DNA of 46,043 nt, from NCBI GenBank assembly GCA_028284945.1, contig JANQQJ010000022.1, positions 1-46,043 of the forward strand. Direction: 5' to 3'. How positions within the stretch are numbered: the first letter of the stretch is position 1; the number at the start of each line of letters is the position of its first letter. This document shows, in pieces, positions 6,570-45,120 of this stretch. This DNA comes from Alphaproteobacteria bacterium. GTDB lineage: Bacteria; Pseudomonadota; Alphaproteobacteria; SMXS01. The position numbers and the translations under genes were made by a program. The notes below the pieces were generated by a model, which had not been told where the DNA came from, searched no databases, and saw only the letters and a program-made list of their open reading frames with translations.

Positions 6570-7949
6570 ATGGCAAGTGACCTGCACGACAGCAGCGAAT
6601 GGCAGAAAGAACCGGCGCCGCAGTGGCCGGAACCTGAATTCAGGGGCCACCGGATACCGGGCTACCGCTATCACAGTCATGAGTTCTTCCATAAGGAATG
6701 GGAGAATATGTGGACTAAGGTCTGGCTGCTGCTGGGCCGTGCGACGGATATGCCGGAACCCGGCGACTACCAGATGGAAGAGATCGGCCCGGACTCGATC
6801 GTTATGGTTCGCCAGCAAGATGGGTCCATTAAGTCCTACTACAATGTCTGTCAGCACCGCGGCGCGCGGCTCGTCTTCAACGAAGAAGGCACGACTGAAG
6901 CGCTAACCTGCCCCTATCACGGCTGGCGCTGGGAGCTGGATGGCTCGCTGACGCATGTGCTCGATCCGGAAGATTTCCCCGAAGGTGACCCATGCGACAA
7001 TTTGAAGCTTGAAGAAGTGGCCTGTGAGGTCTTCGCCGGCTTCATCTGGGTCAATATGGACCCGGACCCCGAACCCCTGAAAGATTATCTCGGGCCGATC
7101 TGGGACGAATGGTCAGCCTATGAAATCGATGACTGGAAGCGCTATGTGGCGATGACCGCGCATTCGCCGGTGAACTGGAAGGTGATCCTGGATAACTTCA
7201 ACGAGTCCTATCACCTGCCGACAGTGCACCCGCAAACGTCCAGCCGGATCGAAGAAAACTATAAATGGACCCAGTTCGATATGGCGCCGGAAGGCCATGC
7301 CCGCATGTGGATGCGAGGCGGCGCACCCTCACGCGCGCTGATCGGCACCGACGAGCCGCTGATGAACGAAAGCCTTGAGGATCAGCTGAAGCGCTGGGAG
7401 CTTGATCCGGATGACTTTGAGGGCCGTGAATACGAAACCCGTGAAGAAATCCAGCAGCAGATGCGCAAGCTGGGACCGGAACGTGGCTATAATCACTTTG
7501 GTAACCTGCGCGACCACCAACTGACCGACACGTATCACTATTTCATTTTCCCGAACTTTGCCGTGTCGGTCTGGGCCGATGGGTTCCACTTCCTGCGGGC
7601 GCGGCCGCACCCGACGGATCCGACCAAATCGGTGTTCGACAATTGGTGGTATGCGCCGGTGCCGAAGGACAATTGCGAAAAGGTCCGCACGATCAACGGC
7701 CCGATGGACGCTGATGCCGATTGCGAGCACGACGAGTTCAACTATGGCGAAAAGAGCCTCGGCCTGCTGATCGACCAGGATATGGGGGTTACAACCGGGC
7801 AACAGCTTGGTTTCCGCTCCCGTGGCTATAAGGGTGTCTATCTGGCTAAACAGGAACACCGCATTCGCCGCTATCACGAACTGATCGATGACTACATTGA
7901 AGGGCGTCGCCCGCTGAAGGATCAGGCGAACAAGATCGCTGCAGAATAG
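6570..7949 (+). CDS. Rieske aromatic ring-hydroxylating oxygenase, alpha subunit (copy 1)
   Basis: 459 residues. The N-terminal Rieske domain binds a [2Fe-2S] cluster through C94, H96, C114 and H117 (VCQHRGARL, then CPYHGW). The catalytic domain carries the mononuclear iron histidines H215 and H220 in NFNESYHLPTVHP; the third ligand is expected to be an acidic residue near the LLIDQDMG segment. Members hydroxylate aromatic rings or demethylate, using electrons from a separate reductase, not found in this window. A GGGGAAAAA stretch precedes the ATG. It is a clear paralog of the two Rieske genes at 27769 and 31918. The hairpin at 7985-8009 follows it. Substrate unknown. Confidence 0.92.
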   Translation: MASDLHDSSEWQKEPAPQWPEPEFRGHRIPGYRYHSHEFFHKEWENMWTKVWLLLGRATDMPEPGDYQMEEIGPDSIVMVRQQDGSIKSYYNVCQHRGARLVFNEEGTTEALTCPYHGWRWELDGSLTHVLDPEDFPEGDPCDNLKLEEVACEVFAGFIWVNMDPDPEPLKDYLGPIWDEWSAYEIDDWKRYVAMTAHSPVNWKVILDNFNESYHLPTVHPQTSSRIEENYKWTQFDMAPEGHARMWMRGGAPSRALIGTDEPLMNESLEDQLKRWELDPDDFEGREYETREEIQQQMRKLGPERGYNHFGNLRDHQLTDTYHYFIFPNFAVSVWADGFHFLRARPHPTDPTKSVFDNWWYAPVPKDNCEKVRTINGPMDADADCEHDEFNYGEKSLGLLIDQDMGVTTGQQLGFRSRGYKGVYLAKQEHRIRRYHELIDDYIEGRRPLKDQANKIAAE

Positions 7950-24427: not shown

Positions 24428-24976
24428 TCACTCTGCTGCCACCGGATGATTTTCGGATTCAGCCTCAACCATTTTGGCCTTCGCCCGGGCCCTGGCCCGA
24501 ATGCGCAGACGTTTGAAGATCGATACCCGGTCTACCAATAGTTTACCCGCCAGGTGGTCCATTTCGTGCTGCAGGCAGACGGCGTGCATCCCGCTCAAAT
24601 TCCGCTCGAACGCGGTGCCATGCTGATCTTGTGCGCGAACGCGCACTCTGGTTGCGCGAAACACATTGCCGACCAAGCCCGGAACAGAGACACATCGTTC
24701 TTCAACGATACCCCAGGCCCCTTTCGACATGATCTGCGGATTGACATAAATCTGCGGGTCCGACTGGTCCTCTGACAGGTCCAGCACCAGCACCTCTTGC
24801 TGGTGGTCGATCTGTGGCGCAGAGAAGCCGATTGATTTGGTGGCATAAAGCGTTTCGAGCAACCGGTCGGTCAAGCCGGTCAGCGCACTATCGAACTCTG
24901 TAACAGGCGCTGAGCGCAGCCGAAGCCGTGGGTCGGGAAACTCCAAAATGCCCAAGCTGTCAGCCGGCTCGGTCAT
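24428..24976 (-). CDS. def: divergent peptide deformylase, overlapping pucC
   Basis: 182 residues. Peptide deformylases remove the formyl group from N-terminal fMet. All three motifs are present but altered: motif I is GFSAPQID (canonical G-x-G-x-AAPQ-x-G), motif II is ERCVS (canonical EGCLS), motif III is QHEMDHLAGKL. The metal ligands C95, H137 and H141 and the catalytic E138 remain, so activity is likely. The C-terminus is unusually basic (about 155-167, RLRIRARARAKAK). The ATG overlaps the pucC stop as ATGA (24973-24976), so it is probably translated from the puc message. Likely an accessory paralog rather than the housekeeping enzyme, which is normally paired with fmt. Convergent with tamB. 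Confidence 0.85.
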   Translation of the reverse strand: MTEPADSLGILEFPDPRLRLRSAPVTEFDSALTGLTDRLLETLYATKSIGFSAPQIDHQQEVLVLDLSEDQSDPQIYVNPQIMSKGAWGIVEERCVSVPGLVGNVFRATRVRVRAQDQHGTAFERNLSGMHAVCLQHEMDHLAGKLLVDRVSIFKRLRIRARARAKAKMVEAESENHPVAAE

Positions 24977-26415
24977 TGTGCCAATCCGGTCGATTGCGTT
25001 TTTGTGCTCTGTGCACGCTCGGCCGATGAGCGGCGGACCAGCGGGACAAGGGCTACGATCGTTGCCAGCAATAGCGCGATTTCAAGGGCGTAGACGGTGA
25101 TGTAGCCGCTGGCGGCGCGGTCGAAGCCGAAGAGCGTGTCGGTCGCGCCGAGAGCCGCATTGACCAAGTCCCGGATCGTGCCGCTCAGGGCCATGGCAAT
25201 CCCGGCGGCTGTAGCCTGGACCGCGCCCCAGGCGCCCAAGGCCAGACCGATCTGATCCTTCGGCGCCAGCCGCATGGTTGCGGTCAACGTGCCGTGCCAG
25301 AAGACTGCAGCGCCAAAGCCAATCAGAAAGTTGCCGACCAGAAACGCCGCTGAGAGCTGAAGCGGCGCGGCCAGAATAACCAGTGCGAAGGCCGGTACGC
25401 CAATGATGGCGCCGTTCTGCGTCATCCGGTACGGGTCGCCGCCGCGGGCCCCCAGTGTGTGCGAGGCATAGGCAAACCCCATCAAGCCGCCCAATGCGAA
25501 TAGCGCGGTTAGTTTCGTGGTGGCGGAGACCGTCCAGTTCAGCACCTGCCCACCGAAAGGCTCGAGCAAGACATCGGCCATCCCGAACGCCATGGTCCCC
25601 AGCCCGACGATAACAAGACGGCGGACGGCCTGTCCGCCCTGACAGAACTGCGCCCAGGACTCAGCAAATGTCGGGTCGACGGCCGGCAGGGGTGCACCGC
25701 GCCGTGGATGCCGGGTTTCCTGCTTCCACATGGCGATCGCATTGAGAGCTAGGCAGGTGACCGCACAGCCCTGGATCACCTGAACCAGCTTGCCTTGGCT
25801 GAAGTCCGCCAGCAGCGCGCCGAAAATGAGAGCGCTGGCCATCATGCCAATCAGCATCATGACATACATCAGTCCAACGACCCGGGGATGTGATTCCTGT
25901 GGTGTCAGGTCTGTTGCCAGCGCCAGACCCGCGGTCTGAACAATATGGGCGCCGGCGCCAACCAGCAGGAACGCTAGTCCCGCGGAAGACAAGCCCACCC
26001 AGGCTGGAACATCTGCTGATTGTCCGGTACCCGCCAGAACCAGCAAGGCAAAGGGCATGACGGCAAAGCCCCCGAACTGCATCATTGTGCCCTTCCAGAT
26101 GAAGGGAACGCGGCGCCAGCCTAACTCGCAGCGATGCGTGTCAGACTTGTAGCCGATCAGGGCCCGAAACGGCGCAAAAACAAGCGGCAACGCGATCATC
26201 ACCGCAACGACTGCCGCCGGTACGTCCAGTTCGACGATCATTACGCGGTTCAGCGTACCGACCAGCAGAACCAGGGTCATGCCGACGGAAATTTGAAAAA
26301 GAGAAAGCCTTAAAAGACGCCCGAGCGAAAGATCAGGCGTCGCAACATCCGCAAACGGAAGATAGCGCGGCCCGAGAGCCGTCCAGGTTGCGACGAGTCG
26401 TTGCCCGATCCTCAT
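24973..26415 (-). CDS. pucC: PucC/LhaA-family light-harvesting complex assembly protein
   Basis: 480 residues, about 12 transmembrane helices, of the bacteriochlorophyll-delivery branch of the major facilitator superfamily. Recognised from LGRLLRLSLFQISVGM, LNRVMIVELDVPA, the PFRALIGYKSDTH segment and VPFIWKGTMMQFGGF, all typical of PucC/LhaA/BchG-associated proteins. PucC is needed to assemble the peripheral antenna, probably by organising bacteriochlorophyll or the alpha/beta polypeptides at the membrane. Its place downstream of pucB and pucA identifies it as PucC rather than LhaA, which lies beside puf. A weak GGAACC lies before the ATG. The 3' end overlaps the peptide deformylase start. 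Confidence 0.93.
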   Translation of the reverse strand: MRIGQRLVATWTALGPRYLPFADVATPDLSLGRLLRLSLFQISVGMTLVLLVGTLNRVMIVELDVPAAVVAVMIALPLVFAPFRALIGYKSDTHRCELGWRRVPFIWKGTMMQFGGFAVMPFALLVLAGTGQSADVPAWVGLSSAGLAFLLVGAGAHIVQTAGLALATDLTPQESHPRVVGLMYVMMLIGMMASALIFGALLADFSQGKLVQVIQGCAVTCLALNAIAMWKQETRHPRRGAPLPAVDPTFAESWAQFCQGGQAVRRLVIVGLGTMAFGMADVLLEPFGGQVLNWTVSATTKLTALFALGGLMGFAYASHTLGARGGDPYRMTQNGAIIGVPAFALVILAAPLQLSAAFLVGNFLIGFGAAVFWHGTLTATMRLAPKDQIGLALGAWGAVQATAAGIAMALSGTIRDLVNAALGATDTLFGFDRAASGYITVYALEIALLLATIVALVPLVRRSSAERAQSTKTQSTGLAQ

Positions 26416-27768: not shown

Positions 27769-29094
27769 CTAGCGGCGGCCTTCCAGATAATCGTTCAGGA
27801 CTTCATGGAATCGCCGCACCCGGCTCTCCTGACCGGTCAGATGGGCATCGGTATAGCCCTGGGAGGCGAGCCCGCGTTGCTGACCCACAGCGACGCTGAG
27901 ATCTTGAATCAAAAACGATCCCGCCATGTCAGGGATATCGACACCCGACCCGTAATCGATATGCTCGTGCTCGCATTCCTCGAACGGACGTTCACCGACC
28001 AAAGTCATGATTGTGTCCTGGCCATGGACTTTGTTGACCAGCCAAAAGCAATCGAAGGTGCACTTATTTGGGTCCGTGAGGTGAGGTTCTGTCCGGAAGA
28101 CAAACACGCCCTCATGGCCGGCCGTCATTGTCACGTTGGGGAACAAGGTGTGATGGTGCGGGTCGGTCAGTTCGGTATCCGTGAAACCGTCCAGGTGCAG
28201 ATACCCTTTTTCCTTTGCAAGTTTGCGCATTTGTTTCTGCATGGCGATCCGGCCGTCGCGGGCCCGTCCTTCAAAGTCCTTTGGATCCAGATCCCATTTT
28301 TCCAGCATCATGTCCCACGGAGACTCGACGGCGTTGGGAACATCGGCCCGCATGGACGGCTGGCCCATCTCGATCATGCGGTTGTGGCCGTTCGGATACA
28401 TCTCGAAGACCGTATTGGCGTAATCCTCGTCGATATTTGCCCGCAGCTGCGGGTGAACCGACGGCAGGTGATAGGATTCATTGAAATTGTCGGAGGCGAA
28501 TTTCCAGTTGGTATCGACATGAAATGTTCGCCAGAAAACCCGGATCATGTCGCCCATGCCGCGATGGGCGAACAGGGTTGGGATCGGGTCCAGATAATCG
28601 AGCAGCGCTGGCGCATCCGGGTCCATGTTCCACCAGGCAAAACCGCCCCATGTTTCGCAGCGCAGCTCGGACAGTGATAGCTCGCCGACGGGGCACCCTT
28701 TCTCGAAATCATCCGGGTCCTGAGCATATTGCAGCACGCCATCCATGCCCCACTGCCACCCGTGATAGGGACAAGTGAACCCGTTGCCGCTGCCGCTTTC
28801 GTTCCAGACAAGCCGCGTTCCCCGGTGGCGGCAGGTGTTGTAGAAAGCGCGGACCGATCCGTCTTCCTGCCGAATCATGATGACGGATTCATGCCTGAAA
28901 TCATGCATGGTGTAGTCGCCGGGTTCGGGCATTTCAGCCAGCCGCCCACCCAAGTGCCAGATGCGAGTCCACATATGGTCCCACTCGCGCTGCATGAAGT
29001 CGGTCGACGTATAACGGTCGCCGGTAATGGGGTCGCCACGAAGTTGGGCGGCTGTGCCACCATCCATGTAATTCAGGTTCGCTGCAGTGGACAT
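27769..29094 (-). CDS. Rieske aromatic ring-hydroxylating oxygenase, alpha subunit (copy 2)
   Basis: 441 residues. Rieske cluster ligands C88, H90, C108 and H111 (NTCRHRGTRL, then CPYHGWQW); catalytic-iron histidines H209 and H214 in NFNESYHLPSVHP. The N-terminus GDRYTSTDFMQREWDHMW and the C-terminal QESRVRRFHEVLNDYLEGR are shared with copies 1 and 3, showing one local family expansion. It follows the histidine kinase stop by 14 bases, so the two are probably on one transcript. No dedicated ferredoxin or reductase is in the window. Substrate unknown; a terpenoid, steroid or aromatic ring is typical of the family. Confidence 0.92.
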   Translation of the reverse strand: MSTAANLNYMDGGTAAQLRGDPITGDRYTSTDFMQREWDHMWTRIWHLGGRLAEMPEPGDYTMHDFRHESVIMIRQEDGSVRAFYNTCRHRGTRLVWNESGSGNGFTCPYHGWQWGMDGVLQYAQDPDDFEKGCPVGELSLSELRCETWGGFAWWNMDPDAPALLDYLDPIPTLFAHRGMGDMIRVFWRTFHVDTNWKFASDNFNESYHLPSVHPQLRANIDEDYANTVFEMYPNGHNRMIEMGQPSMRADVPNAVESPWDMMLEKWDLDPKDFEGRARDGRIAMQKQMRKLAKEKGYLHLDGFTDTELTDPHHHTLFPNVTMTAGHEGVFVFRTEPHLTDPNKCTFDCFWLVNKVHGQDTIMTLVGERPFEECEHEHIDYGSGVDIPDMAGSFLIQDLSVAVGQQRGLASQGYTDAHLTGQESRVRRFHEVLNDYLEGRR

Positions 29095-31917: not shown

Positions 31918-33231
31918 TCAGGCCGAATTTGCACATCCGTGTCGGATGTACGCGTCAAGGCAGTCATGAAACTGCTGTACCCGGCTTTCCTGCCCTGTGA
32001 GATAGGCACCCGCAAACCCTCGCGATTGGAATCCCAGTTGTTGGCCTGTGGCAACCCGCAGGTCCTGATCGGGGATGTAGCCCAGTGATCCTTCACCGAA
32101 GGTAACGACCGTCTTTTCGACCTCTTCGATAGCGACATCCTCACCCAATTCGTTCGGCACGCGGGCTTTTCCGTCGCCGGGTGCCACCAGCCGCCAATTC
32201 TCATAGATGCACTTGTTAGGGTCGGTCGGGTGCGGTTCGGCGCGTTGCAAGCCGACGACCGTTGCCTGCGCTGTAATCGTCGTTCCGGGAAAAAGGTTAA
32301 AGTGGAATGGGTCTGTCAGCTGCTCATCGAGGAGCTTGGGAAAGTAGGTGTACTTTCTGCCGGGGCCAAGGTTGCGTTTCTGCTGTTGCAGCGCTTCGCG
32401 CGCATCACCGGCATGGCCGTCGAAGTCACGCGGGTTCATGTCCCATTCTTCCAGTTCCGCGGCCAAGGCCGGGTTCACCTGATCGGGTTCATCGTCCCGC
32501 TGCGAGGGCAGGGCGCCTTTCATGCGCATCAAGTTATGGCCGGTGTCGAACAACTCGAACACCGTATTTTTGTAATCGTCGTCGAAGAACTCGCTGAGCT
32601 CCGGATGCGTCGTTGGTAGGTGGTAGGATTCACAGAAATTGTCGTGAATTGATTTCCAGTTACATGGCACCTCGGAGACCAGGTAGGAAATCCGGACCAT
32701 ATGCTCCATCTCGTACCCGTCGAGCAGGGTTTTGACCTCGCCCAGAAAGCCGTCGAGGCTCTCGCAGTCCAGGTCCATATTGTACCAGATGAAACCGCCC
32801 CAAATGTCGCATCGGACCTCAGGCAGGTTCAGCACGCCGCACGGGTTGCCTTGGGGGAAGTCATCTGCATCCTGCACATAGGTTAGTACGCCATCCAAAC
32901 TGAATTGCCAGCCGTGGTACGAGCAGGTGAAAAGGTCGGTCGCTCCTTCTTCGCCATAGACCAGCCGGTTGCCCCGATGGGTGCAGACATTATGAAATGC
33001 GCGGACTGATCCATCTTCCTGCCGCACCATCAGGATGGAATCCCGGCCGAGCTGATGGGTGATGTAGTCGCCGGCTTCCGGAATTTCCGAGAGGCGTCCG
33101 CCAATGTTCCAGACCTTGGCCCAGACATAATCGGCTTCCTGTTGCATAAAATCGGTGGAGATATACCGGTCGCGTGTGATCGCCGCATGCGGTGCCGATG
33201 AAGGGTAGTCTTCGATTCTCTGTGTCGACAT
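31918..33231 (-). CDS. Rieske aromatic ring-hydroxylating oxygenase, alpha subunit (copy 3)
   Basis: 437 residues. Cluster ligands C83, H85, C103 and H106 (NVCTHRGNRL, then CSYHGWQF); catalytic-iron histidines H204 and H209 in NFCESYHLPTTHP. It shares ITRDRYISTDFMQ and the QESRVQQFHDCLDAYI end with copy 2. It lies 19 bases downstream of the NTF2-like gene, which could supply a beta-type subunit, the only one of the three copies with such a neighbour. The final stop UGA is not followed by a family-conserved extension, so it is read as a true stop. Confidence 0.92.
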   Translation of the reverse strand: MSTQRIEDYPSSAPHAAITRDRYISTDFMQQEADYVWAKVWNIGGRLSEIPEAGDYITHQLGRDSILMVRQEDGSVRAFHNVCTHRGNRLVYGEEGATDLFTCSYHGWQFSLDGVLTYVQDADDFPQGNPCGVLNLPEVRCDIWGGFIWYNMDLDCESLDGFLGEVKTLLDGYEMEHMVRISYLVSEVPCNWKSIHDNFCESYHLPTTHPELSEFFDDDYKNTVFELFDTGHNLMRMKGALPSQRDDEPDQVNPALAAELEEWDMNPRDFDGHAGDAREALQQQKRNLGPGRKYTYFPKLLDEQLTDPFHFNLFPGTTITAQATVVGLQRAEPHPTDPNKCIYENWRLVAPGDGKARVPNELGEDVAIEEVEKTVVTFGEGSLGYIPDQDLRVATGQQLGFQSRGFAGAYLTGQESRVQQFHDCLDAYIRHGCANSA

Positions 33232-36732: not shown

Positions 36733-37953
36733 CTATCTCGGTTGCCGGTGGCTTTCCGTATAGGGAACGATCAACATCTTGCCGGTGATGGAGACCATCT
36801 GGTTTTCGTTCTCTGACAAGGTCGCACGCAACCGGAGCAGCATGTCGCCACCCAGGGTTTGCGACCAGAACCAGTCGGCTATTTCATTGCTTGAAGGATC
36901 GGACCCGTTCCGCCCGGGTTGGGCCGTCGCCGCTTCTGAGTAATAGGCTTTGAAATCATCGCAGGCCAGACGCAGTTGCGTTGGCAGATCGTTCTCTTCC
37001 GGACCGGCGTCCGGCGTCTCGCCGCGGGCCCACGCGGACAGGTAACGGACCAGGTCTTCGATCTCCAATTGGCTTGTGCCGACCGCCGTACGCCCTCGGC
37101 GATCTACTGCGAGGTCGTACCAGGAGCGCAGCGCCTCGATTTCATCCAGCAGCGCAGAATCCTGATCGCGTTCGGCTTCCGGCGCGGGCAGGTTGATCGG
37201 GCAGACCCAGCCTTCATCGTCTTCGCTTGACGATGCCGGTGCATCGTCAGGGAAATCTTCAAGGATCGGGCCATCCGTCCGCTCAAGCAGATCAAGAGCG
37301 CTGCGCAACACGCCGGTTTGGAAGGCTGTATCCTCAGGCGCGCCAAGCGGGCGGCCCAGCTCGAAGGGCACCCATAGAGCCCTTGGTGGCTTGACCTTCT
37401 CGGTATGCAATCGCACCAGGCTGATCCCGACGGTCGGGATACCAGCCGCTTCAAAATAATGACTGAGCCCGCCAACGGCGCGCGTGCAGAATGGTCAGAC
37501 GGGGGTTAGCAGCACCGCGTCGACGGCATCCTGTTTGAGCAATCCGGCGATCTGATCGGCGGCATCCTTCATAGTCAGCGGATCGGATGCGCCCATGAAC
37601 GAGTAATGGAATTCCGCCACGGAGCCGATCACACCCTCCGCAGCGAGCTCGTTCAACCGGTCCAGAGGGAACACCACATTGGTGTCCTGCTGAAACCCGG
37701 TGCGGTCGAAATTGGTCGATAGATGGCTGATCTGCACTGATCCTGCTGCGTCGCTGGGGATCACCCGGTAATCGGCGGCGCCAAAGCCGAATGGGCGGTC
37801 GCCGGGCCGTTGAAGCCCCGCTGTAGTGACTATGGCGACACGGCGCTCGGACAGCGGCGGGCCCTTTGCCAGCGGCGTATCGGGAAATTCTGGTATCTCC
37901 AGATGCTCCAGATGTTCCCGCAGAGTCTCGTCCATGTCCTCCATGCGTGCCAT
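36733..37953 (-). CDS. PrdB/GrdB-like selenoprotein (glycine/proline reductase selenoprotein B family)
   Basis: 406 residues when the in-frame UGA at 37497-37495 is read as selenocysteine (Sec153). Upstream and downstream halves are in one frame, and both match the family. Before the UGA: VAIVTTAGLQ, NVVFPLDRLNELAAEGVIG and DAVLLTPV. After it: PFCTRAVGGLSHYFEAAGIP, then PTVGISLVRLHTEKVKPPRA and LWVPFELGRPLGAP. In D-proline reductase PrdB the same place reads LLTPG-U-x-x-C, so U-P-F-C is the redox centre. The C-terminal half is a lineage-specific, acidic extension. It lies 14 bases after the UGSC gene and is the last gene of the operon. Substrate unknown; no pyruvoyl proprotein (PrdA/GrdE) is present. 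Confidence 0.88.
37470..37480 (-). promoter_or_regulatory. candidate bacterial SECIS of the PrdB-like gene
   Basis: CGCC-GTT-GGCG forms a 4-base-pair stem with a GUU triloop, extendable by two pairs past a G-G mismatch. The loop begins 19 bases after the UGA, in the usual distance range for bacterial SECIS elements, and has G as its first loop base. The same GUU triloop is found after the UGSC and selD UGA codons. Confidence 0.6.
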
Positions 37954-37967
37954 GCGTTCGCCCGTTC

Positions 37968-38486
37968 CTACTTTGTTAGCGCGTCGAGAATGGACTGTAC
38001 CGCGTCATCGGCCTTTTGACGCATTTCGTCGTCCGTTGCGTCCTGAATCGGATGATCGACGAAGACGGCCTTGGCCGTTTTCATGCCAAGCGCTGTTGCT
38101 TGCACATCGGCGGCGTCGACAAACTCTTCAGAGGCGACGGAAACGGAGGGGATGCCCTGGATTTCGAACCATACAGTGTCGTGCAAACTGCACGTCGTGC
38201 ATGAGCCTCAATCAGCCAGCGCCTCCACGACGAAATCGCATTCGTCCTTGATTTGGAGGCGCAGATCGTCCGGGCAGGGCTTGGTGAAGGTCGGTTTGGT
38301 ATAGCGTCTGATCTCAACGCCAGGCAGCTTGGTCTGCAGCTGCTCATCAAGCCTGTCGAGGAAGACGTCGCCGCGCGGCTTACGGATGTCTAGCAGGCCG
38401 ACGATGCCGGAGACCTCGCCGCTGCGCGGCGTCAATTGCCGCTCCACGGGTACCCGCTCATCCGTCGGGTCCAGAATTGTTGTCAT
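37968..38486 (-). CDS. UGSC-family selenoprotein
   Basis: 172 residues when the UGA at 38210-38208 is read as selenocysteine (Sec93). The N-terminal half ends FVVEALAD, then U-G-S-C-T-T-C, then SLHDTVWFEIQGIPSVSV and ASEEFVDAADVQATALGM. U-G-S-C is the naming motif of this family; homologs with CGSC exist. C96 should form a selenenylsulfide with Sec93, and C99 is an additional thiol. GGAGAG before the ATG is strong. It sits between the thioredoxin-fusion gene (28 bases upstream) and the PrdB-like gene (14 bases downstream). Function of the family is not established; a thiol/selenol redox role is inferred. Confidence 0.9.
38180..38194 (-). promoter_or_regulatory. candidate bacterial SECIS of the UGSC gene
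   Basis: CGTGCA-GTT-TGCACG is a perfect 6-base-pair stem with a GUU triloop, the loop starting 20 bases after the UGA. An alternative TGCAC-GAC-GTGCA hairpin overlaps it. Position and loop agree with the candidates in the other two selenoprotein genes. Confidence 0.65.
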
Positions 38487-40258: not shown

Positions 40259-40352
40259 TGGCGGAGACGGATGGGAATCGAACCCACCACACATATCGCT
40301 ATGTGTCACCGGCTTTGAAGGCCGTGGAAGCCACCAGACTCCATTCGTCTCC
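40259..40352 (-). tRNA. selC: tRNA-Sec (anticodon UCA)
   Basis: 94 bases including an encoded CCA. The acceptor GGAGACG pairs with CGTCTCC. The anticodon arm CGGC-CTTCAAA-GCCG places TCA in the loop, so it reads UGA. A long extra arm of seven pairs (ACACATA with TATGTGT) is diagnostic for selenocysteine tRNA, as are the lengthened D arm and the T arm GTGGG-TTCGATT-CCCAT. The eighth acceptor pair appears as A-C. It sits between the selenoprotein operon and selD, and is transcribed in the same direction as the operon. Confidence 0.95.
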
Positions 40353-40477: not shown

Positions 40478-41542
40478 ATGACGGATCGGGTGGATGTCCG
40501 CCTGACCCAGTTTGCCAAATCGGCTGGTTGAGCCGGCAAGCTAGGGCCAGAGGACCTGTCGCAAGTTTTGCGGCCGCTGAAATCGATGTTTCCGCAAGCG
40601 GACTTCCCGGATGTGCTGCGAGGCTTGAGCGCACCCGACGATGCCGCTGTGGTCAAACTCGATGACAAACAGGCGCTGGTCCTGACCGCTGATTTCTTCG
40701 CGCCCATCGTCGATGACCCGGTTGAATTCGGCGCGATTGCGGCCACCAACGCGCTGTCTGACATCTATGCCATGGGCGCGCGGCCTATTCTGGCAATCAA
40801 TCTGGCCGGGTTCCCGAAGGATATGGACCCGCAAATCCTGTCTGACATTCTGCGCGGTGGGGCCGACAAGGTGCTGGAGGCCGGGGCGGTCGTCGCGGGC
40901 GGCCACACGACCATTGATGAAGAACCGAAATATGGGCTTGCGGTCATCGGGCTCGTCGATCTGGACAAAATCTATCGTAATGAGGGCGCGCAGGCGGGCG
41001 ACCAGTTGCTGTTAACCAAACCGCTGGGGACCGGTGTGATCGCGACGGCGTTGAAGCGGGGCAAGGCGTCAGAGCCCTCCATCCGCGACGCCATCGCCAG
41101 CATGACGCGGTTGAGCAAGGTCGCTGTTGAGGTCTTGAAGGAGGCAGGTGGTGATGCAGTTCACGCTGTGACCGACATCACCGGCTTCTCGCTCGCCGGA
41201 CATGGCCATGAGATGGCGGCGCTGTCCGGCACGGCGCTCAACCTTCGCCTGGCTGACCTGCCGGTGCTGGAAGGCACTGAGGACTTGCTGGAACAGGGCA
41301 TCGGCTCAGGCGGCATGGACCGGAACCGCGACTATTACACCCAGTGGGTCAGCACCAAGGCCAATGCTGAATCGCCACGCCACCGGCTGATCTATGATCC
41401 GCAAACCTCCGGCGGGTTGCTGATCGCGGTCGGGCCGGAAGCGTTGGATGAGATATTGGCTGCCTTTGATGCGGCTGGCGAACCGGTCTGGCACATCGGC
41501 GAGGTTACTGAGGGTCCCGGCGGCTCGATAACGGTCGACTAG
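40478..41542 (+). CDS. selD: selenophosphate synthase, itself a selenoprotein (Sec18)
   Basis: 354 residues, starting at the ATG at 40478 (AGGAG upstream) and reading through an in-frame UGA at 40529-40531. The start is MTDRVDVRLTQFAKSAG-U-AGKLGP. Sec18 falls at the catalytic Cys17 of E. coli SelD, and K21 at Lys20. Downstream motifs are those of the PurM-like fold: DDAAVVKL, NALSDIYAMGARPI, GGHTTIDEEP, VTDITGFSLAGHGHEM and QTSGGLLIAV. It makes selenophosphate from selenide and ATP for SelA. A gene call beginning at TTG 40568 would remove the active site. Divergent from tRNA-Sec. Confidence 0.94.
40560..40572 (+). promoter_or_regulatory. candidate bacterial SECIS of selD
   Basis: CGCAA-GTT-TTGCG is a perfect 5-base-pair stem with a GUU triloop, the loop beginning 34 bases after the UGA, near the upper limit of the usual spacing. 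A nearer, weaker hairpin (AGGGCC-AGA-GGACCT, 40543-40557, one mismatch) is an alternative. Confidence 0.5.
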
Positions 41543-41579
41543 AAACGATTAGGAATCAGGCTGTGGATCATGGGCGGCG

Positions 41580-41912
41580 TTAGCGGCTGTCGTTGTCCCC
41601 TGCTGAACCGCCGTCACCATCGTCGTCGTTGCCAGCGCCACCCGCACCGCCACTCCCATAAATCAGGCCACCCTTGCCACCATGACCACTGTCACTGCCG
41701 TCGCCTCCAGCCCCGCCGCTGCCGTAGATCAGACCACCCTGGCCGCCGGCACCACTGTCGCCACCTTTGCCACCGTGACCGCCGGTGCCTTCCGATTCAT
41801 CGGTACTATCGGCGGACTTCGCCGTACTGGTGGCAGCATCGTCAGCTATTGCCGGTACGGCGACGACTGCGCCAATTATAAGTGTCGCCAAACCGAGAAA
41901 TTTCCGTTTCAT
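41580..41912 (-). CDS. secreted glycine-rich repeat protein
   Basis: 110 residues. A clear signal peptide (MKRKFLGLATLIIGAVVAVP, then AIA cleaved before DDAATS) is followed by a Ser/Asp/Thr stretch and a Gly-rich region. Two copies of a GHGGKGG-containing unit each lead to LIYGSGGAGG. The end is acidic (NDDDGDGGSAGDNDSR). It is probably exported and flexible; no enzyme motif is present. It lies opposite in direction between selD and selA. The Shine-Dalgarno AGGAG can pair with CTCCT just before the ATG (AGGAG-CGA-CTCCT), which may restrict translation. I do not recognise a named family. Confidence 0.7.
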   Translation of the reverse strand: MKRKFLGLATLIIGAVVAVPAIADDAATSTAKSADSTDESEGTGGHGGKGGDSGAGGQGGLIYGSGGAGGDGSDSGHGGKGGLIYGSGGAGGAGNDDDGDGGSAGDNDSR

Positions 41913-41992: not shown

Positions 41993-43384
41993 ATGGATAA
42001 GAAACTCTTCAGGCAAATCCCTCAGGTTGGCGAGCTTGCGGCATCGCCGGCTTTGTCGCCGCTGCGTGATGGGTGGTCGCAGACTGAGATCGTTGGCGCG
42101 CTTCGAGCGCTGCTGGATAGTGTGCGTGCTGACCTGGGCAGTGGTGGGGCGCTGCCTGACTTTGCCTCCGACGGCTTTGTTGCTGACGTCGAAGCAGAGT
42201 TGCAGGCGAAAAAGCGGCTCAACCTACGGCGGGTCATTAACGGCACCGGGATCATCATCCATACCAATCTGGGCCGTGCGCCGTTGGCGCCGCAGGCCAT
42301 CGAAGCCATGCAGGACGTCGCGCAAGGCTATGCCAATATCGAATATGACCTTGAGGCCGGGAGGCGCGGCTCCCGTTACGACCATATTCGCGACCTTCTC
42401 TGCGAGCTGACCGGTGCGGAAGATGCGGTCGTGGTTAACAATTGCGCGGCAGCCGTGACGATTGCCATGGCGACTTTTGCCCGCGACCGGGAGGTTGTTG
42501 TCTCGCGTGGCGAACTGGTCGAAATCGGCGGGTCATTCCGGGTGCCCGATGTGATTTCCCAGAACGGCGCGCGGCTGCGTGAAGTCGGCACCACCAACAA
42601 GACGCATCTTGCCGATTACGAGCGAGCGATTGGCGGGGAAACGGCGGTGCTGCTGCGCACCCATACCAGCAATTACCGGCTGGTCGGGTTTACGGCCAAA
42701 CCGTCTTTGAACGAACTCGCCAATCTGGCCCACGCCAACGATCTCATTCTGGTCGAAGACTTGGGCAGCGGCACGCTTGTTGATCTGGCAGCTCATGGCA
42801 TCGGTGATGAACCGACCGTGTCGCACAGCATCCGGTCCGGCGTCGATTTGGTGACCTTCTCCGGTGACAAGTTGTTGGGCGGGCCCCAATGCGGCGTCCT
42901 GGTCGGCAAGGCCGACTTGATCGCCCAGGTCAGAAAGAACCCGTTGCTGCGGGCGATGCGGAGCGACAAGCTCTCACTGGCCGCGCTAGAGGCCACATTG
43001 CGGCTCTATCGCCCACCGCATGATCCACTTAACGACGTACCCGTGCTCCGCATGCTGACGGCATCCGCGGAGGATTTGGCCGAAAACGCAGGTGCGCTGG
43101 TTGCCGATCTTGGACAGGTTCCGGGCGTGTCTGCCCAAACCCTTCCGATTCCGTCAGAGGCAGGCGGTGGATCGCTGCCCGGCGTTCAACTGGACTCCAC
43201 GGGGATCGCGCTCAGCGTCGGCGACCTGACTGGCAAAGCGCTCATTGCGCGCCTGCGGGCCAACGAGCCTGCCATTATTGGCCGTATTGTTGACGATCAG
43301 GCGATCCTCGATGTGCGGACGCTGACGCCGGGCGATGTGGATGACATTGCCGCCGCGCTGATGGCGATCTCTGAAAGCGCATAG
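41993..43384 (+). CDS. selA: L-seryl-tRNA(Sec) selenium transferase
   Basis: 463 residues, a standard length. The PLP-dependent enzyme converts seryl-tRNA(Sec) to selenocysteyl-tRNA(Sec) using selenophosphate. Motifs: RRVINGTGIIIHTNLGRAPL, the AVVVNNCAAAVTIAM loop, VEDLGSGTLVDL, and the PLP lysine K293 in TFSGDKLLGGPQCG. The C-terminus IIGRIVDDQAILDVRTLTPG is typical. No good Shine-Dalgarno precedes the ATG; a TATAGT sequence at 41980-41985 is very close to it. Followed after 5 bases by selB. Confidence 0.96.
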   Translation: MDKKLFRQIPQVGELAASPALSPLRDGWSQTEIVGALRALLDSVRADLGSGGALPDFASDGFVADVEAELQAKKRLNLRRVINGTGIIIHTNLGRAPLAPQAIEAMQDVAQGYANIEYDLEAGRRGSRYDHIRDLLCELTGAEDAVVVNNCAAAVTIAMATFARDREVVVSRGELVEIGGSFRVPDVISQNGARLREVGTTNKTHLADYERAIGGETAVLLRTHTSNYRLVGFTAKPSLNELANLAHANDLILVEDLGSGTLVDLAAHGIGDEPTVSHSIRSGVDLVTFSGDKLLGGPQCGVLVGKADLIAQVRKNPLLRAMRSDKLSLAALEATLRLYRPPHDPLNDVPVLRMLTASAEDLAENAGALVADLGQVPGVSAQTLPIPSEAGGGSLPGVQLDSTGIALSVGDLTGKALIARLRANEPAIIGRIVDDQAILDVRTLTPGDVDDIAAALMAISESA

Positions 43385-43389
43385 ACCCG

Positions 43390-45120
43390 GTGCAGGACCA
43401 TCTTTCAGTTGGCGTGGTGGGCCATGTCGATCATGGCAAGACCACCTTGGTCAAGTCTTTGACCGGGACAGAGACGGACCGGCTTGCCGAAGAGCGCGAG
43501 CGGGGCCTGAGCATCGTGTTGGGCTTTGCTTTTCGTGAAACCGACAAGGGTGTGATCGATTTCATCGACGCGCCGGGGCATGCGGATTTTGTCCGCACCA
43601 TGATTTCCGGCGCGACGGGCATTGACGCCGCGCTGGTGGTGGTTGACGTCAATGAAGGGATCATGCCGCAAACCTGTGAGCATCTGCGGATTGTTTCGCT
43701 TTTGGGGATTTCACGGTTGGTCGTGGCGTTGACGAAGATCGATCTGGCGACGGATGGAGTCGTGGCGTCGGCAGAGGCGGCGCTAAGGACCTATTTGTCG
43801 AGCGTTGGCTTCAGTGATGTTGTCTTTGTGCCGGTCTGTGCGCTTTCGGGTCAGGGGGTCGACCGGCTGGTCGCTGCACTCGAACAGCTATTCCAGAAAG
43901 AAGCCGAACAGGCCCATGGCGATAAATTCTATTTGCCTTTTGACCGGGTCTTCACGGTGCGCGGCTTTGGCACCGTTGTAACGGGCACGTTGCGCGCGGG
44001 AACCATGAAGATTGGAGACGAGGGCCAGATTATCGGCACGAACGCGGCTGCCCGGGTGCGCCGGTTGGAGGTCCACGGTACCGAGGTGGATGTGGCAAAG
44101 CCCGGCCAACGGGTCGCGGCCAATCTGCGGGTCGATGGAGGCGTGACGCTGGAACGCGGTCAGGCGGTTGCGGCGCCCGGCTGGATCGAGCCGTCTGAAT
44201 GGTGGTCCGCGAGCCTCAATATGGCCGGCGACGTTGAGGTCAGCTTGAAGAATGGTAAGCCGGTTCGTCTGTTACATGGTACGCGCGAGGTGATCGCGAC
44301 GCTGCGGCTGCTGGACCGGGACATCGTCGCGCCGGGCGAACAGGCTAACGTCCAGTTTCATCTAAAACAGCCAGAGGGTGCCTGGGACCAGGAGCACTTC
44401 ATTGTCCGAACCATCTCACCTGTGGAAACCGTTGGCGGGGGCCGGTTTCTCGATACGGCCGCAACACGCATCAAACGTTACGACGAAAATGCAATCCGCA
44501 GGCTGGCATCAGGCGAGGCCGAGGATGACGGCGTCGACCCATCAGAAAGCATGATTGAGGCCGTGCAAGCCTATCACGCATCGCACCCCATGCGCGTCGG
44601 GATGCCGAGGCTTGAACTGGCGGACAAACTTGGTTTGGAGCGTCAGACCATGACCGATTTACTGGCGCGGTTGCAAGCTGCTGGACGGCTAATTGATCAT
44701 GGTGCGCAGATCAGTCTTGCAGACTTTGATCCGCTTGAATCGTTGGACGACCGGGAACGGGCTCGGGTCGAGGCGCTCGAAAGCCTCATTCGCGAAACCC
44801 CGTTGATGCCGCCGACGCTCGATGAGGTCGTCGCGCTGGACCGCCAAAACAAGGCAAGTGCCGAACTACTGATTGAAACGGGCAAGGTCGTCCCGCTGCA
44901 CGACTTTAAGCGCAAGAACCTGTTTCTGTTCCATGCCACGGACATTGAAGACGCCGTTGCGTCTTTGCGTCAGGCGTGGCCGCCGCCTGCCCGGTTTCGT
45001 CTGGGCGAGGCGCGCGAGCATCTCGGCGTGACCCGAAAGTTTCTCCAGCCGCTGCTTGAATATCTCGACAAGCAGAAGATCACGCAGCGGCGGGAGGATT
45101 TTCGGGAAATGCTATCCTAG
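43390..45120 (+). CDS. selB: selenocysteine-specific translation elongation factor
   Basis: 576 residues from GTG at 43390. GTPase motifs: G1 GHVDHGKT (11-18), G2 RGLSIVLGF, G3 DAPGH, G4 TKID. Translation-factor beta-barrels follow (FTVRGFGTVVTGTLRAG). The C-terminal third carries the winged-helix modules that bind the SECIS, including RFRLGEAREHLGVTRKFLQP and LLEYLDKQKITQRR. It delivers Sec-tRNA to UGA codons with an adjacent SECIS. The 5-base gap from selA implies one transcript. Confidence 0.95.
   Translation: MQDHLSVGVVGHVDHGKTTLVKSLTGTETDRLAEERERGLSIVLGFAFRETDKGVIDFIDAPGHADFVRTMISGATGIDAALVVVDVNEGIMPQTCEHLRIVSLLGISRLVVALTKIDLATDGVVASAEAALRTYLSSVGFSDVVFVPVCALSGQGVDRLVAALEQLFQKEAEQAHGDKFYLPFDRVFTVRGFGTVVTGTLRAGTMKIGDEGQIIGTNAAARVRRLEVHGTEVDVAKPGQRVAANLRVDGGVTLERGQAVAAPGWIEPSEWWSASLNMAGDVEVSLKNGKPVRLLHGTREVIATLRLLDRDIVAPGEQANVQFHLKQPEGAWDQEHFIVRTISPVETVGGGRFLDTAATRIKRYDENAIRRLASGEAEDDGVDPSESMIEAVQAYHASHPMRVGMPRLELADKLGLERQTMTDLLARLQAAGRLIDHGAQISLADFDPLESLDDRERARVEALESLIRETPLMPPTLDEVVALDRQNKASAELLIETGKVVPLHDFKRKNLFLFHATDIEDAVASLRQAWPPPARFRLGEAREHLGVTRKFLQPLLEYLDKQKITQRREDFREMLS

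Follow-up and report, generated by a model that had tools for sequence, protein, structure and literature searches.

A UGSC-family selenoprotein of an alphaproteobacterium as a probable distant relative of the GrdB/PrdB selenocysteine domain, and the probable double constraint on its third cysteine

The UGSC family was among the commonest selenoprotein families in an ocean survey, in which it comprised 255 sequences and its function was not given (PMC2398784). The family is still without an assigned function (PMC13188914), and the same holds for reviews up to 2026. Among the selenocysteine (Sec)-containing reductases, glycine reductase uses thioredoxin and breaks a carbon-selenium bond in a step coupled to a selenenylsulfide (PMC10298544). 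The Sec subunits with which the present locus is compared are GrdB/GrdF/GrdH (PF07355), i.e., protein B of glycine, sarcosine, and betaine reductase, and PrdB (TIGR04483), the Sec subunit of D-proline reductase.

The window analysed is a stretch of 46,043 nucleotides of contig JANQQJ010000022.1 (GCA_028284945.1), assigned to an alphaproteobacterium; the features of interest are listed in Table 1. The 172-aa product of the UGSC gene was matched over its full length by both family models, NF041046 (170.5 bits, E 2.2e-50, curated cut-off 125) and PF24696 (168.3 bits, E 2.2e-49, curated cut-off 25). The motif U93-G-S-C96-T-T-C99-S-L-H-D (UGSCTTCSLHD) contains the family signature [U/C]-G-S-C as U93, G94, S95, and C96, and the invariant columns in a diverse set of 20 UGSC proteins were U/C93, G94, S95, C96, and F122. 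Judged by these profile matches, the protein is a genuine member of the known UGSC selenoprotein family. It shares with the family (PF24696/NF041046) the full-length match, the UGSC motif, and the frequent Sec form (PMC2398784), and differs from it in nothing essential; it belongs to a clade carrying C99, whose partner protein has a fused thioredoxin domain. No sequence relatives were found in the PDB with the UGSC sequence, and a search among viral contigs gave no matches. Elsewhere in the window, a catabolic region is suggested by three Rieske ring-hydroxylating oxygenase alpha subunits (6570-7949, 27769-29094, and 31918-33231) together with TonB-dependent receptors. The stretch 24973-26415 encodes a PucC-type protein, and a short plus-strand ORF between selD and selA (41570-41881) had no family match.

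Table 1. Features of the UGSC locus and the adjoining selenocysteine machinery in the window.
Feature	Position	Strand	Remarks
GrdB/PrdB-like second selenoprotein	36733..37953	minus	UPFC motif, UGA 37495-37497; directly downstream of the UGSC gene
UGSC-family selenoprotein gene	37968..38486	minus	172 aa, Sec93/C96/C99; NF041046 and PF24696 matches
Bacterial SECIS hairpin	38167..38206	minus	Apical stem-loop 38180-38194; loop GU 38187-38188 (nt 23-24); nt 21-27 pairing
Codon 99 (TGC, third Cys)	38190..38192	minus	Also SECIS stem, nt 19-21 from UGA
In-frame UGA, Sec codon 93	38208..38210	minus	Kept in 80/80 close homologues and most paralogues
Partner protein, 530 aa	38515..40107	minus	N-terminal thioredoxin-like domain (CPTC, C37/C40) and C-terminal domain (~aa 189-530) with conserved C251 and C349
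tRNA-Sec	40259..40352	minus	Shortly upstream of, and on the same strand as, the partner-UGSC operon; likewise in most relatives
selD	40478..41542	plus	TIGR00476, 1.1e-110; own in-frame UGA at 40529-40531
selA	41993..43384	plus	TIGR00474, 1.3e-172
selB	43390..45120	plus	TIGR00475, 8e-90

The original prediction had placed an in-frame UGA exactly at the U of the UGSC motif, followed by conserved-looking sequence. Both statements were borne out: the TGA at 38208-38210 is codon 93 of a minus-strand gene, and the same UGSC..C motif occurs in 80/80 close homologues. The ORF (38486..37968) is open on both sides of this codon, provided it is read through. TGA occupies the same codon in all 80 close homologues, which come from other genomes and show 65-87% identity. 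SECIS nucleotides are numbered here from the U of UGA. In 81/81 sequences, the UGA was followed by a hairpin that had GU at nt 23-24. The stem pair between nt 21 and 27 was standard in 107/107 unique Sec sequences (those with C, W, or G at residue 99), with 17 double changes, against at most 85/107 in shuffled controls. Among the 12 Cys-form homologues this pairing was retained in five, and GU at nt 23-24, present in 107/107 Sec forms, occurred in 0/12. Genes of the A99 type have their own, shifted hairpin. The folding z-score of the window hairpin alone (-1.0 to -1.6) is not unusual, so that support for the SECIS comes from comparison across homologues. The genome thus has an in-frame UGA followed by a SECIS, together with SelA, SelB, SelD, and tRNA-Sec. 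In the relatives, tRNA-Sec was found in 48 of 60 loci scanned, lying directly upstream of the partner gene and on the same strand in 45 of those 48, and at over 40 of the 80 loci selA and selB lay within ~6 kb. From the adjoining Sec machinery, the 80/80 conservation, and the hairpin after the UGA, this codon is almost certainly read as selenocysteine. That the UGA is a true stop or disabling mutation, as the standard code would have it, is very improbable given its complete conservation, the covarying SECIS, and the full machinery alongside; a plain stop or pseudogene was ruled out on the first two grounds. The same-strand arrangement of tRNA-Sec just upstream of the thioredoxin-partner and UGSC genes (the window and L002-L078) looks as if the tRNA were co-transcribed with its client. 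In ~14 loci (e.g., L073:6651-8813), SelD fused to an NADH-dehydrogenase-like domain was encoded near UGSC.

The original prediction also regarded C99 as an extra cysteine that could resolve a selenenylsulfide internally, and conservation of this residue in close relatives, on which that idea depended, was found in 80/80. A survey of 385 alphaproteobacterial genomes gave 37 with UGSC genes, up to 8 per genome and nearly all with one TGA. Among ~90 alphaproteobacterial paralogues, residue 99 was Cys in 56, Trp in 17, Ala in 16, and Gly in one, while U/C93 and C96 were fixed; the Sec/Cys pair would therefore work without C99. The tree indicated about five changes at residue 99, with Cys99 essentially confined to one clade, in which 72 of 73 rows had Cys. 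For one long-branch row (L091; motif CGSCSMW), the automatic label looks wrong. On this sequence distribution, C99 is not required for the chemistry of the UGSC family, and the notion of a general redox mechanism involving this residue is not supported. Nor is the third cysteine an addition peculiar to the window gene, since it marks a whole clade and the UxxCxxC spacing also occurs in GrdB/GrdF/GrdH. Some alphaproteobacterial genomes (G767, G774, G931, G854, and G925; L136-L225) carry 6-8 UGSC selenoprotein paralogues with a partner copy for each. Two consecutive partner copies are found at most W99 loci, and the A99 clade has a UGSC-partner fusion. Four loci (L046, L048, L055, and L057) are on contigs labelled Acidobacteria and resemble those of Hyphomonas; this label is probably wrong, because phylum sampling around the genome of L048 gave genomes of the window's own phylum.

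Part of the conservation of C99 may be traced to the RNA. Codon 99 lies inside the SECIS stem, and nt 21 (codon 99) pairs with nt 27 (codon 101), which accounts for the coupling seen between the two codons: Cys99 (TGC) was always combined with a G-ending codon 101 (Leu, Met, or Thr), and Trp99 (TGG) with a C-ending one (Phe, Ile, or Val). By this covariation, residues 99 and 101 are tied together through the SECIS RNA, and the stem position explains, at the sequence level, part of the conservation of C99, which by itself is thus no proof of a redox role. The coupling serves as a warning that residues directly following Sec can seem functionally conserved because they encode the SECIS. Taken to its limit, this explanation would have C99 conserved solely through the TGC codon, the residue having no protein role. 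The invariable nt 21-27 pairing with its double changes and the matching of Cys99 and Trp99 to the ending of codon 101 agree with it. However, C99 is retained in three Cys-converted members without a SECIS (L085, L094, and L096), all of which the tree places within the C99 clade; this argues for a protein role too, three cases being few. Codons for Gly (GGC) or Trp also fit the stem elsewhere, yet the clade is almost uniformly Cys. An exclusively RNA-based conservation is accordingly rather unlikely, and protein-level selection on C99 besides the RNA constraint appears likely from these sequences.

What such a protein role might be is a separate matter. In a redox relay, the oxidation would move from the Sec93-C96 pair to C96-C99, and the selenolate would be released with no need of an external thiol. 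The near-invariance of C99 in the clade and among the close homologues fits a relay, as does its retention in the three Cys-converted members, which need no SECIS. The third Cys is likewise found in GrdB/F/H, and the UxxCxxC motif of GrdB is named in PMC13188914. Against this, Trp, Ala, or Gly stands at position 99 in many Sec paralogues, Trp is found there in most of the 12 Cys forms, and the fused thioredoxin is already at hand. The predicted structure (mean pLDDT 91.5; alternating strands and helices) places residue 93 just ahead of helix 94-109 and residues 96 and 99 inside it, about one turn apart; two positions within one helix would make a poor disulfide site. As far as the secondary structure of the model indicates, this placement favours a bond between 93 and 96 over one between 96 and 99. 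A relay through C99 is considered improbable as the explanation of the residue. Internal resolution by C99 is possible in one clade, and in the sequence comparison is neither required nor demonstrated.

The relationship of UGSC to the described reductases was assessed by profile-profile comparison. An alignment of 148 UGSC sequences was compared using hhalign with one of 22 GrdB/PrdB-type sequences, some of them taken from annotated records (GrdF, GrdH, and PrdB) or from a Photobacterium plasmid (a GrdB). The two were matched at 95.1% (E 3.3e-8, score 55.5), with Sec on Sec, over a homologous stretch of ~60 residues. The score was 40.3 after ten motif columns had been masked, 43.1 against GrdB types alone, and 42.5 against PrdB alone; the maximum was 18.0 in 60 shuffled or reversed alignments and 23.6 against 15 unrelated families. 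An earlier, shallow comparison (20 UGSC and 7 GrdB-like sequences) was weak (11%), yet it aligned Sec on the Sec of the GrdB/PrdB-like neighbour. None of 20 UGSC proteins gave a direct match to PF07355, even with E allowed up to 10, and the link is thus one of superfamily rather than of membership. According to these profiles, UGSC and the GrdB/PrdB selenocysteine domain are distantly homologous, a relationship that is new here.

Beyond the profile homology, GrdB/GrdF/GrdH and UGSC have the identical spacing U-G-[ST]-C-T-x-C (U-G-T-C-T-R-C, i.e., UxxCxxC, in GrdB/F/H), a downstream HPL/HPI motif, and a link to thioredoxin. UGSC differs from them in being a single short domain that falls below the Pfam model and in having another partner without detectable similarity to GrdE. 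PrdB has a UGTC motif at the same place, but Ser/Thr replaces the third Cys at the last position; no PrdA-type partner was seen for UGSC, and D-proline reductase is NADH-linked rather than thioredoxin-linked (PMC10298544), unlike the reading proposed below for UGSC. The second selenoprotein of the window, the GrdB/PrdB-like neighbour (36733-37953), has a C-terminal extension of ~180 aa, and several homologues (L002, L098, L100, and L227) retain its UGA. It was rejected as a part of the core system, its adjacency to UGSC being limited to the nearest relative, L002.

In the Foldseek search, the top matches of the UGSC model were flavodoxin-like proteins, FMN reductases, azoreductases, and flavodoxins, and not thioredoxins; the scores were moderate, such folds are common, and the match lists leave other folds possible. 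These results bear on the suspicion of the 2008 paper that the family is a general thiol oxidoreductase or peroxidase of the thioredoxin-like kind rather than a substrate-specific reductase. With the thioredoxin-like UxxC selenoproteins UGSC has in common the UxxC at a helix start, and its linkage to thioredoxin would be in keeping with such an activity. The confident model, however, resembles flavodoxin-like alpha/beta proteins, and both the GrdB/PrdB profile homology and the many paralogues, each with its own partner, speak against a general oxidoreductase, which we hold to be unlikely.

Of the 80 close homologues, 78 have the partner gene immediately upstream of UGSC, and the contigs of the remaining two are cut. 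The partner adjoins or is fused to UGSC in nearly all of ~92 paralogue loci; it also accompanies UGSC at haloarchaeal, actinobacterial, and betaproteobacterial plasmid loci. Its conserved residues are C251 (95%), C349 (93%), R318, and E352. The C-terminal domain gave no convincing Pfam/NCBIfam match at E up to 5, and the PDB matches of the partner were through the thioredoxin domain only, which likewise took up the matches of the fold search. This domain (K-x-[DE]-C-P-T-C type) is fused to the partner in the window's clade, and free trxA/trxB adjoin other UGSC genes. Comparison of single sequences revealed no detectable similarity of the partner to the GrdE region or to other ORFs of the grd/prd loci examined, which leaves a pyruvoyl step like that in the mechanism of glycine/proline reductase unsupported here.

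Based on the homology to GrdB/PrdB and the linkage to the partner and thioredoxin, the best reading of UGSC is a two-component reductase. UGSC would be the Sec subunit, with its UGA decoded as Sec, of a thioredoxin-dependent enzyme, and we regard this as somewhat probable, the chemistry being deduced from that linkage and homology. Sec93 would stand where a helix of a flavodoxin-like alpha/beta domain begins and, from there, attack a small organic molecule that the partner presents as substrate; the Se adduct would be resolved by C96 to give a Sec93-C96 selenenylsulfide, which the thioredoxin domain (CPTC) would re-reduce. C99 would not be needed in this cycle. Within its own clade, the likely role of C99 is to tune the Sec93-C96 pair, to back it up, or to help docking, its codon also serving the SECIS stem. 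The occurrence of up to 8 paralogues per genome and the catabolic neighbours of UGSC genes would fit a set of substrate-specific enzymes.

In a wider and more tentative interpretation, slightly less probable than not, UGSC and its partner would belong to the glycine/proline-reductase superfamily as a branch that is widespread and mostly aerobic: modular, thioredoxin-fed Sec/Cys reductases, up to 8 per genome, each acting on its own small organic compound by cleaving a C-N, C-O, C-S, or comparable bond. In the window's clade, the system would be wired directly to the Sec machinery through the arrangement of tRNA-Sec, thioredoxin-partner, and UGSC. Of interest are the relationship at the superfamily level, a partner that is nearly always present, and the tie that the SECIS imposes between residues 99 and 101. 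With GrdB/PrdB, a fixed partner, and thioredoxin connected to UGSC, the family becomes open to a concrete biochemical test.
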